Source: an uncultured Thalassolituus sp.
Lineage (GTDB): Bacteria; Pseudomonadota; Gammaproteobacteria; Pseudomonadales; Oceanobacteraceae
Direction of reading: 5' to 3'
Assembly: GCA_913061435.1 (NCBI GenBank)
Contig: CAJXUK010000008.1
Location: forward strand, 32,375-96,374
Length of the DNA: 64,000 nucleotides
The notes under the pieces were generated by a model. The model was not told where the DNA came from. It was given only the letters and a program-made list of their open reading frames with translations, and did not search any database. The position numbers were made by a program, and so were the translations under genes. Shown here piece by piece: positions 22,997-27,793 of the stretch. Every line of letters begins with the position of its first letter. The first letter of the stretch is position 1.

Positions 22997-24247
22997 TTGA
23001 GCAAATTTACTCGTTTTATTAGGCATCAGCGGCGTATTCGTCATGCAATTTATCAAACTGAAAGGACCATCAAACGCTCAGTGATACGCACGGGCTTAGT
23101 AATGCTCGGCTTGATTACCTTGCACGCAAGTCTGATGGTGCTTTTAGAAGGAATGACTCTTTGGCAAGGGTTATGGTTAACATTAACAACAATTACCACA
23201 GTTGGTTTTGGGGACATTTCACCAGCAACACCCCTAGGACAAGCAGCCACGATTGGCTTGATTTATTTATGTGGTATTACCTTAATGACGTTTTTGATCA
23301 GTGATTACGTTGACTTTCGCATAGCACGAAGAGAAAAAATTCGCTGCGGCCTTTGGGATTGGAATATGGAAGAACACATCTTAATTATTAATTCGCCGAA
23401 ATATAACAGCGAAGATTATTTTATTCGCCTGATTGCGCAAATTAGAGAAAATGCAGAGTATGTCGATACCCCAATCCAGTTGTTGAACACTAATTTTCCT
23501 TCAGGGTTGCCTGATTTTTTGCGTGAATTAGGCGCGGTTCATGTGCACGGTACTCCCAGTAATCCGGCGGATTTAAAAAAGGCGGGGGCTGAGCGTGCAA
23601 AACATATCGTAGTATTAGCGCGTAATGAATATGCAAGCGATAGTGATAGCTTTACCTTTGATGTTGCTCATCGATTATATGAACTGCATGTTTGCCATAA
23701 AACCATCATTGAATGTGTTATTGATGGTAATCGTCAGCGTATGAAAGACTTGGGGGTTAAGTCGGTATTGAGGCCAATCCGTAATTACCCAGAAATTATT
23801 GTACGTTCTATGGATGCCCCAGGCTCAGAAGTTATTATTGAAGACATGTTTACCCGTGCTAATGATCACCCTCACCGTTACCCGGTTTGGTTAGAAGGTG
23901 AGCCTTGGGCCGATGTTGTTAATGCCTTAGTACAAGCGAATCTAGGTACTGCATTGGGTTACGTAACAAAAGAAGGTGATGTTGTCGCACACCCAAATGG
24001 CAATGACCATGTGCATGCACAATCATTAATTGTATTAGTGAAAACAGATTTACAGCCAGAAGAAAAACAAGTAACAAAGGCTTTAGAGGACTATTTTCAG
24101 TTACAAATTTCTCGGCGCATACAAACAAACCAAGAAGATATTACAGAGCAGACAGCAGACTCAGATTTAAATTTAGATACAAAGTCAGAGTCAAAACCGG
24201 AGTCAAAATCTGAACAACAAGCGAACTTAGGGGATGAAAAACCTTAA
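22997..24247 (+). CDS. Two-TM potassium channel protein with TrkA-N domain
   Basis: TTITTVGFGDISPATPLGQ selectivity filter and RCK/TrkA-like domain; TTG start. Confidence 0.85.
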   Translation: MSKFTRFIRHQRRIRHAIYQTERTIKRSVIRTGLVMLGLITLHASLMVLLEGMTLWQGLWLTLTTITTVGFGDISPATPLGQAATIGLIYLCGITLMTFLISDYVDFRIARREKIRCGLWDWNMEEHILIINSPKYNSEDYFIRLIAQIRENAEYVDTPIQLLNTNFPSGLPDFLRELGAVHVHGTPSNPADLKKAGAERAKHIVVLARNEYASDSDSFTFDVAHRLYELHVCHKTIIECVIDGNRQRMKDLGVKSVLRPIRNYPEIIVRSMDAPGSEVIIEDMFTRANDHPHRYPVWLEGEPWADVVNALVQANLGTALGYVTKEGDVVAHPNGNDHVHAQSLIVLVKTDLQPEEKQVTKALEDYFQLQISRRIQTNQEDITEQTADSDLNLDTKSESKPESKSEQQANLGDEKP

Positions 24248-24326
24248 TTAGCTATTAACAAACTTGTTATATCTTTATTTATTTATTTACATATTCTTTT
24301 ACAGACCGATATTGGCAGGGTTTAAA

Positions 24327-25082
24327 GTGACACAGTTTCGTCCATGCATAGATTTACACGAAGGAAAAGTTAAGCAAATTGTCGGTGGCAGTCTGAGTGA
24401 CCAAGGGGCTGATACTAATTTTGTTAGCCAATATGATGCGGCTTATTATGCCAGCCTTTACCGTGAGCACGAGCTACAAGGTGGCCATGTAATCGCATTA
24501 GGGCCAGGCAATAAAGATGAAGCCTTAAAAGCATTAGCAGCTTGGCCTAATGCCCTGCAGTTTGGTGGGGGCGTTAATCAAACAAACGCTGCCGAGTTTT
24601 TGCAGGCAGGGGCTTCTCATGTAATCGTTACCTCTTACTTGTTTGAAAACGGCGAGTTTTCTTGGGACCGCTTAGAAGCACTGAAAGCAGAAACCGGTAA
24701 AAACCGTTTGGTATTGGATTTAAGCTGTCGACGCACCGCAACAGGCTGGAATATTGCCACCGACCGCTGGCAAACGGTCACCAACACCGCAGTGGATGAA
24801 AGCACCTTAACAGAGTTGGCTAATCACTGTGATGAGTTTTTAATTCATGCGGCTGATGTTGAAGGTTTGCAAGCAGGGATTGATGAGGAGCTTGTGAGTC
24901 TATTAGGAAAGTACGCCATGATTCCTGTGACCTACGCCGGTGGAGCTCGCTCTATTGAAGACCTTAAACGTGTTAATGAACTGTCGGCGGGCAAAGTTGA
25001 TTTAACCATTGGAAGTGCGCTGGATATTTTTGGTGGCCAAGGCATTACTTTAGCCGAATGTTTGGCTTGGAATAAGCGCTAG
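24327..25082 (+). CDS. Phosphoribosylformimino-5-aminoimidazole carboxamide ribotide isomerase, eukaryotic (HIS6) type
   Basis: FRPCIDLHEGKVKQIVGGSL...NFVSQYDAAYYASLYREHELQGGHVIALGPGN...VVDLSCRRT-like, FLIHAADVEGLQAGIDEELVSLL, VTYAGGARSIEDLKRVNELSAGKVDLTIGSALDIFGG; GTG start at 24327. Confidence 0.9.
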   Translation: MTQFRPCIDLHEGKVKQIVGGSLSDQGADTNFVSQYDAAYYASLYREHELQGGHVIALGPGNKDEALKALAAWPNALQFGGGVNQTNAAEFLQAGASHVIVTSYLFENGEFSWDRLEALKAETGKNRLVLDLSCRRTATGWNIATDRWQTVTNTAVDESTLTELANHCDEFLIHAADVEGLQAGIDEELVSLLGKYAMIPVTYAGGARSIEDLKRVNELSAGKVDLTIGSALDIFGGQGITLAECLAWNKR

Positions 25083-25176: not shown

Positions 25177-25503
25177 TTGTTCACCATGCATACCCCCATC
25201 AATCATAGCTTTTTAGTTAATCGCCCAGCATTGCTGGCTATTAGCTTAGGTCTGCTATTGTTGCTGGCAACGATTATCCAAACCCTTCATGATCATAGTC
25301 ATCACGATGCTTTAGGGGCGGTAGTCGGTTGTGAGTATTGCACCTCGACTCCTAGTTATGACGCTGCGCTTTCTAGCCACTCCCTTAATCTTCCCCTTCA
25401 GTTTATCGACCTGGCGATTGTGGCTTTTGTCGATTTACTTGTGGTAATTAATCCTGATTTTTTTCAGCAATCACGTGCACCGCCCAGTGCCTCTCTTTCT
25501 TAA
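25177..25503 (+). CDS. Small His-rich membrane protein, probable metal-related
   Basis: One N-terminal TM segment then HDHSHHD and CEYC; directly upstream of the ZnuD-like receptor. Confidence 0.6.
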   Translation: MFTMHTPINHSFLVNRPALLAISLGLLLLLATIIQTLHDHSHHDALGAVVGCEYCTSTPSYDAALSSHSLNLPLQFIDLAIVAFVDLLVVINPDFFQQSRAPPSASLS

Positions 25504-25603
25504 ATCTTTTATCAACATTGTCATTATCCATTTAGTTAACTGCTAGCACTTTGAAAGTGCATTAGTGTTCTTGTGAGCGCTAATGAAAAGAGAAAGTATG
25601 TAC

Positions 25604-27793
25604 ATGAAAAATTTATCATTTAAAACATTACCCACCCTATTGGCTGCGTCTGTTTGGGCGGTATCGTCGCAAGCAGAAGAAACCGTGTCTTCGCCAAAAC
25701 CCGCTCAGCTGGATAAAGTTGTGATCAGCGCGCATAGCTTTGACCAAGGCCAGCATGAAATGTCGCAACCGGCGACTCTTTTAATCGATGAAGCCTTAGA
25801 TCGCCAACGAGCGAACAGTTTAGGTGAAACCTTGGGTGCACAAACGGGAATTCATAATGCCAGCTATGGCACTTCGGTTGGGCGCCCGGTGATACGGGGT
25901 ATGTCGGGTGCACGGGTAAAAATATTACAAGATGGTATCGATACACTCGATGCGTCTAGTGTAAGCCCAGATCACAGTGTGAATGCGGATACATTTAATG
26001 CAAAAAAAATAGAGGTGTTACGTGGTCCGGCCACACTCATGTATGGCAGTGGTGCGTTTGGGGGTGTTGTTAATACTGTGGACGGTCGCGTACCTAATGG
26101 ACAGGCTGAACCACAAACCACACTTCGTGCCCAGTACGACAGTGTTAATAAAGGCAAAACCGTGGGCGCAAGCAACAATGGGTTTGTGGATACGAATAAC
26201 GGTAATGAAGTGCATTGGAATATTTCGGCGAGCCATTTCCGTAGTGATGAGTATGAGTTGCCTAAATTGTCCGAGCACCACGACGAGCATGAAGGAGAAA
26301 GCGAAGCAGAGCATGACGAGCATGGCGATGATGACGTGCTCGCTAACTCGGATACTTCGTATAATAACCAGCTAACTCTGGGCACTAGTTATGTTTTTAA
26401 TTCGGGCTACGTTGGTATTGCCATTAGCCAAAGTAAGAGCGAATACGGGCTACCAGGACATGTGCATGAGCACGAACATGAGCACGATGCAAACGAAACA
26501 GAAGCAGAGCATGCTGAGCATGAAGAAGACGCTGAAGGAGCCCGCATTGAAATGCGCCAACAGCGCATTGATATAGACAGCCGCTGGGATGCACCCTTAG
26601 CGGGGATTGAATCGGCTAAATTTCGAATTGGTTTCAATGATTATCGTCACGACGAAATAGAAGATGGTGCAGTTAGTACTGAGTTTCGCCGTAAAGGCTA
26701 CGAAGGGCGTAGTGAAGTATTGTTGTCGCCAGTGGCTAATATCACTCAAGCAGTGGGTGTTCAGTTTTCGCAAGATACCTTTAGTTCAGGCAGTGGCGAC
26801 CTTGTAGGCAGTGGCGGTAGCGTAACAGTGCCTGAAACAGACAGTGCTGTTGTCGGACTTTTTTGGTTGGGTAAAACGGATGTTGCTGGCTGGGGGATTG
26901 AAATGGGTGCCCGCATGGAGCAGGCACAACTTTCACCTGATCGCCCAGGTGCAAATAATTTTGCTCCTGGTTCAGTGAGTCTAAATTGCACGCAATTAAC
27001 CCAAGCTGATTATAATGACAAAACCTTTAATACACACAGCGCTTCGCTGGGCCTAATCAAAGAGTTTACCAATATCGCCATGAAGTCTTGGCAGCTAACC
27101 GCATCGCTAACGTCGGCTCAAAGAGCACCGACTACCCAAGAGCTTTTTTCATGTGGGTCTCATGCAGCCACGCAAACGTTCGATATGGGAAACCCAGATT
27201 TAAACCCCGAACAAGCACTGAATGTTGAGTTTGGGCTACGAAAAATTCAAGGTCGTTTTACCGCGGGTGTGAACGTGTATCAAAATAGCATTAACGATTT
27301 TATTTATGCTAAAAATACCGGCTTAGAAGTTGATGAGCTGGGGCAATACCAATATGTACAAAATAATGTCAAATTTATTGGTGCTGAATTAGACGCCGAA
27401 TACCGTCTTTTAGATGGCTTAACTTTAACCGCGATGGCAGATCGCGTTCGTGCTGACGATTTACCTCGTATTCCTGCAGACCGCATTGGCTTAGGGTTTG
27501 AGTTATCCACAATGGCTTTATTTTCCACATCGTCTGATTGGACAATGTATGGGCAATGGCAGCAGGTACAAAAGCAAACACAAGTGGCAGAATATGAAGA
27601 CAGCACTTTAGGTTATGACTTATTAACACTGGGAATGAGTTATCAGGCACTTTTGGCAAATAACGAATATCGCGTTGATATCCAGGCAAACAATTTACTG
27701 GATGAAGAAATTCGCCAACATACTTCGTTTGTCAAAGAACAGGCTCCACAGCCAGGGCGTAATATTAGCTTGGGCTTAACCGTGACTTTTTAG
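25604..27793 (+). CDS. znuD: TonB-dependent receptor, ZnuD-like (zinc)
   Basis: Plug VEVLRGPATLMYGSGAFGGVVN-type (KIEVLRGPATLMYGSGAFGG), C-terminal F; His/Asp/Glu-rich loops HHDEHEGESEAEHDEHGDDD and HVHEHEHEHDANETEAEHAEHEED; start uncertain (25583, 25598 or 25604). Confidence 0.82.
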   Translation: MKNLSFKTLPTLLAASVWAVSSQAEETVSSPKPAQLDKVVISAHSFDQGQHEMSQPATLLIDEALDRQRANSLGETLGAQTGIHNASYGTSVGRPVIRGMSGARVKILQDGIDTLDASSVSPDHSVNADTFNAKKIEVLRGPATLMYGSGAFGGVVNTVDGRVPNGQAEPQTTLRAQYDSVNKGKTVGASNNGFVDTNNGNEVHWNISASHFRSDEYELPKLSEHHDEHEGESEAEHDEHGDDDVLANSDTSYNNQLTLGTSYVFNSGYVGIAISQSKSEYGLPGHVHEHEHEHDANETEAEHAEHEEDAEGARIEMRQQRIDIDSRWDAPLAGIESAKFRIGFNDYRHDEIEDGAVSTEFRRKGYEGRSEVLLSPVANITQAVGVQFSQDTFSSGSGDLVGSGGSVTVPETDSAVVGLFWLGKTDVAGWGIEMGARMEQAQLSPDRPGANNFAPGSVSLNCTQLTQADYNDKTFNTHSASLGLIKEFTNIAMKSWQLTASLTSAQRAPTTQELFSCGSHAATQTFDMGNPDLNPEQALNVEFGLRKIQGRFTAGVNVYQNSINDFIYAKNTGLEVDELGQYQYVQNNVKFIGAELDAEYRLLDGLTLTAMADRVRADDLPRIPADRIGLGFELSTMALFSTSSDWTMYGQWQQVQKQTQVAEYEDSTLGYDLLTLGMSYQALLANNEYRVDIQANNLLDEEIRQHTSFVKEQAPQPGRNISLGLTVTF

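Follow-up and report, generated by a model that had tools for sequence, protein, structure and literature searches.

Within the 64,000-nucleotide stretch of DNA analysed here (the window), the plus-strand open reading frame at 24327–25082 encodes a protein of 251 residues, VTQFRPCIDLHEGKVKQIVGG...ALDIFGG...WNKR, read from a GTG at 24327, the best start codon, to a stop codon at 25080–25082. A possible ribosome-binding site, GGCAGG, can be discerned 7 nt 5' of the GTG (24314–24319, plus strand), and no convincing promoter for the gene was found. Upstream, on the same strand, lies a gene for an RCK/ion-channel protein (22997–24247; Pfam Ion_trans_2 and RCK), for which neither Pfam nor neighbourhood comparison gave any sign of a functional link to the reading frame that follows it. 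The region at 25177–27793 encodes a 108-residue protein without a Pfam match and then a TonB-dependent receptor, whose His/Glu-rich acidic loops, HEHEHEHDANETEAEHAEHEED, suggest zinc or another metal as its substrate.

The protein matches the NCBIfam profile TIGR02129 (hisA_euk), the family of yeast HIS6 and plant HISN3, with 371 bits and an E value of 3.5e-111, well above its curated equivalog threshold (229.3 bits), and residues 2–250 align with positions 1–255 of the 255-position profile. The scores against TIGR00007, the bacterial HisA family (64.3 bits, cut-off 228.95), and TIGR00735, the HisF family (27.5 bits, cut-off 294.55), are far below those required for membership. The initial annotation had recognised a yeast HIS6-like pattern here rather than that of the usual bacterial HisA and had proposed a profile comparison as a check; the motifs that it quoted are present, and the comparison bears it out. 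A search of the PDB returned chains 9fcf and 2agk, which we take to be the structures of Medicago HISN3 and yeast HIS6, respectively, with E values of about 1e-78, the next HisA and HisF chains being at 1e-12 or worse. Sequence identity is 55% to the yeast protein, 53% to the Medicago protein and about 20% to canonical HisA; the yeast and Medicago proteins are 45% identical, so that each is closer to the window protein than to the other. The resemblance to HIS6 and HISN3 thus comprises a full-length equivalog match, shared motifs and the active-site Asp residues, but the window gene is bacterial, chromosomal and free-standing. With the canonical HisA of Escherichia coli and Salmonella, the protein shares membership of the PF00977 fold family and the predicted reaction, but its gene lies outside the his operon. 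TIGR02129 is already named, curated and annotated, and in this respect the window gene is real but largely ordinary.

In HisA and HisF barrels, catalysis is performed by an Asp on strand β1 and an Asp on strand β5. In HisF, these are D11, the general acid, and D130, the general base (PMC11350729). The equivalent residues in the window protein are Asp9 in the CIDLH motif (codon 24351–24353, plus strand), which also aligns with the Asp of AIDL in canonical HisA, and Asp131 in the LDLSC motif (codon 24717–24719, plus strand), which aligns with that of GLDAQ. Across the family alignment, Asp is found at the first of these positions in 192 of 193 members and at the second in all 193. The sole exception is the Medicago chain 9fcf_A, where the Asn was probably introduced by engineering of the active site and is not part of the natural sequence. 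The invariant glycine motifs GGG (residues 80–82), YAGG (203–206) and GSALDIFGG (229–237) would be consistent with the sites for the two substrate phosphates. The likely reaction is the isomerisation of ProFAR to PRFAR (EC 5.3.1.16), which would supply HisH–HisF.

The gene stands by itself, as had been noted at the outset. A tblastn search of the window with hisB, hisH, hisF and canonical hisA queries found nothing besides this gene, so that for these four the earlier remark that the window holds no other his gene is upheld. The gene neighbourhood is preserved in Oleispira only; beyond that genus, neighbourhood comparison revealed no conserved neighbours for TIGR02129-type hisA, and expression of the gene is presumably uncoupled from that of the his operon. 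Neither a mobile element nor a conserved neighbour that might account for transfer was found, and the lack of conserved neighbours outside Oleispira fits a gene that moved alone.

Elsewhere in the source genome, that of an Oleispira relative (2.94 Mb, 94% complete), only hisF joins this gene in exceeding the cut-off for Pfam His_biosynth (PF00977). The contig carrying hisF (L001/L103) has the order hisB–hisH–hisF, in which hisH and hisF are 107 bp apart and hisA is missing, whereas in family members carrying the canonical gene (G030 and L106, for example) the operon order is hisB–hisH–hisA–hisF. It is possible that a canonical hisA resides on a missing piece of the 94%-complete assembly, but TIGR00007 does not exceed its cut-off in any genome of the source genus. 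Examination of the his operon in 40 genomes of the family showed that all 14 carriers of TIGR02129 lack the operon hisA and that all 25 non-carriers have it; in one further genome (G003, 71% complete), the operon is likewise vacant, and the TIGR02129 gene was not found. On a tree of hisB, hisH and hisF from the family, the presence or absence of the operon hisA maps to a single change, the dividing branch having modest support (77/95). Of the two possibilities raised in the initial annotation, that the gene replaces canonical hisA or coexists with it, the former is therefore retained and the latter set aside: as far as sequence can show, the TIGR02129 type has replaced the canonical gene in the source genome. 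The product is accordingly predicted to be the only ProFAR isomerase of the cell, responsible for step four of histidine synthesis. A second hisH–hisF-like pair, of 32–36% identity and located away from the his operon, is present in some members of the family, at L110, L112 and L254 (genomes G009, G007 and G012), and is possibly a glycan amidation pair of the WbuY/WbuZ kind.

The same either/or relationship holds more widely. In the order, 295 genomes were compared: TIGR02129 is present in 50 and TIGR00007 in 233; none has both, and 12 have neither. The hypergeometric probability of this exclusion is 1.7e-45, a value that ignores the relatedness of the genomes. In two genera, g84 and g96, the types alternate within the genus, from which it is likely that more than one exchange has occurred in the order. 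Fibrobacterota and Verrucomicrobiota also have HisA of the TIGR02129 type. In Fibrobacterota, TIGR02129 occurs in 136 of 151 genomes and TIGR00007 in 3 of 151; in Verrucomicrobiota, the figures are 161 of 388 and, in an overlapping sample, 123 of 241; in both phyla, the sets are disjoint. The type is found in some Bacillota as well. In a sample of 399 Pseudomonadota, there are just three carriers, all from the order of the source organism. TIGR02129 HisA is the normal form in Fibrobacterota but a replacement in the gammaproteobacteria. Such strict alternation marks the two types as alternatives for one job and is the strongest evidence here that the window gene encodes a working ProFAR isomerase. 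The pattern, in which the two never occur together in about 690 genomes, shows a clean swap of an essential core-pathway enzyme for a remote relative within its fold family, the old hisA having been excised from an otherwise intact operon.

A pattern scan of genome contigs identified 318 stretches encoding a relative of the window protein. The best 80 of these are mostly from Oceanospirillales-type organisms (Oleispira, Amphritea, Marinomonas, Neptunomonas, Porticoccaceae and SAR92), with Fibrobacteraceae and Rubritalea more distant. The hisA of Paenibacillus cellulosilyticus (WP_110045644.1), annotated with the TIGR02129 product name, is 55% identical (tblastn); unlike the window gene, it is carried on a plasmid, the 509-kb NZ_CP054609.1, in a species of Bacillota. 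Viral contigs contained no relative of the window protein. One record deposited as 'Bacteriophage sp.' (MT839235.1, 1–4463, UNVERIFIED; L116) was rejected as being of phage origin because apparent rarA and penicillin-binding protein genes lie beside its hisA, and it looks like a fragment of a Clostridia-like bacterial chromosome.

In a tree of 86 sequences, the gammaproteobacterial TIGR02129 proteins group together in a single clade (99/92), and two sequences from the phylum Fibrobacterota, L218 and L220, are sister to it (99/87). Fibrobacterota and Verrucomicrobiota sequences are spread across both halves of the tree. The yeast protein falls among Verrucomicrobiota (94/88) on a long branch, and the Medicago protein is in the other half. 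An earlier tree of 45 rows, in which long branches were drawn together (Medicago to the Clostridia-like fragment, yeast to Rubritalea), is superseded by this one. Constraining yeast and Medicago to group together was rejected by the AU test (p=0.0023), and joining yeast to the gammaproteobacterial clade was not (p=0.17). To judge from these sequences, the bacterial side is certain, TIGR02129 being a broad and deep bacterial family, and the eukaryotic side is uncertain, since it is represented by two sequences only, that of yeast being long-branched. With the inclusion of more Fibrobacterota or of further phyla, a different sister group might emerge for the gammaproteobacterial clade. The label 'eukaryotic-type' is a misnomer, an accident in the naming of the reference family; there are two alternative lineages of HisA in bacteria.

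We consider it very probable that the window gene belongs to a bacterial HisA lineage that was gained from another bacterium as a lone gene, the canonical hisA being lost thereafter. The TIGR02129 lineage is common to fungi, plants, Fibrobacterota, many Verrucomicrobiota, some Bacillota and a portion of the marine gammaproteobacteria. In this scheme, the free-standing gene would have reached an ancestor belonging to the order from another bacterium, most likely one related to Fibrobacterota, although the tree, being unrooted, does not fix the direction of transfer. The canonical hisA would then have become redundant and been deleted from between hisH and hisF.

Transfer from a fungus- or plant-like eukaryote, which the TIGR02129 description reportedly suggests for Fibrobacter, is in our judgement very improbable. 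The family takes its name from eukaryotic members, the window protein is closer to those of yeast and Medicago than they are to one another, and the AU test tolerates yeast beside the gammaproteobacterial clade; nevertheless, the abundance of carriers in Fibrobacterota and Verrucomicrobiota, in both halves of the tree, argues against it, as do the separation of yeast from Medicago and the sister position of Fibrobacterota sequences, which in this tree with two eukaryotic sequences leaves the gammaproteobacterial proteins outside any eukaryotic clade. The initial annotation had offered horizontal transfer or common ancestry of a bacterial lineage and the eukaryotic form. The second is supported in outline; the first, as a one-off event from a eukaryote, is not supported, the type being the regular HisA of Fibrobacterota and of many Verrucomicrobiota. 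The phylogeny that it called for united the gammaproteobacterial copies beside Fibrobacterota but placed yeast and Medicago apart, each among bacterial sequences.

It is equally hard to credit that the TIGR02129 type goes back to the gammaproteobacterial ancestor, or further still, and has disappeared from most lineages, with canonical hisA kept in those. The single gammaproteobacterial clade and the lack of coexistence, with alternation even within genera, are compatible with such a history; however, it requires long coexistence and parallel losses, no genome with both types was found, sampled Pseudomonadota outside the order are without TIGR02129 and canonical hisA occupies its place in the common operon order. 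That the protein is instead a paralogue of HisA/HisF serving a nucleotide, glycan or tryptophan pathway, and that the real HisA was missed in a draft assembly is extremely unlikely: the position outside the operon and the HisF-like paralogues in L110, L112 and L254 are outweighed by the equivalog-level match to HIS6, the strict exclusion of canonical hisA in three groups, the empty hisA site in every readable carrier and the conserved catalytic Asp residues.

We suggest, tentatively and with the balance somewhat against us, that fungi and plants did not inherit a single eukaryotic gene but took HIS6 and HISN3 separately from different bacterial stocks of this HisA lineage, Verrucomicrobiota-like for yeast and another for plants, and that among bacteria the lineage has repeatedly taken the place of canonical hisA in the form of a stand-alone gene. 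Where the fungal and plant genes came from can be tested with a dense tree, a matter of some importance since histidine synthesis in plants is a target for herbicides. No paper on TIGR02129-type HisA in bacteria was found in the open literature; a study of Roseburia describes a hisA outside the his operons (PMC7478625). The either/or pattern, the precise loss of the operon hisA and the separate placement of yeast and plant appear to be less documented in the open literature searched.

In one Verrucomicrobiota genome (G860, contig C42:48040-50726), two adjacent TIGR02129 copies with equal scores lie about 1.2 kb apart, representing either a tandem duplication or an assembly artefact.
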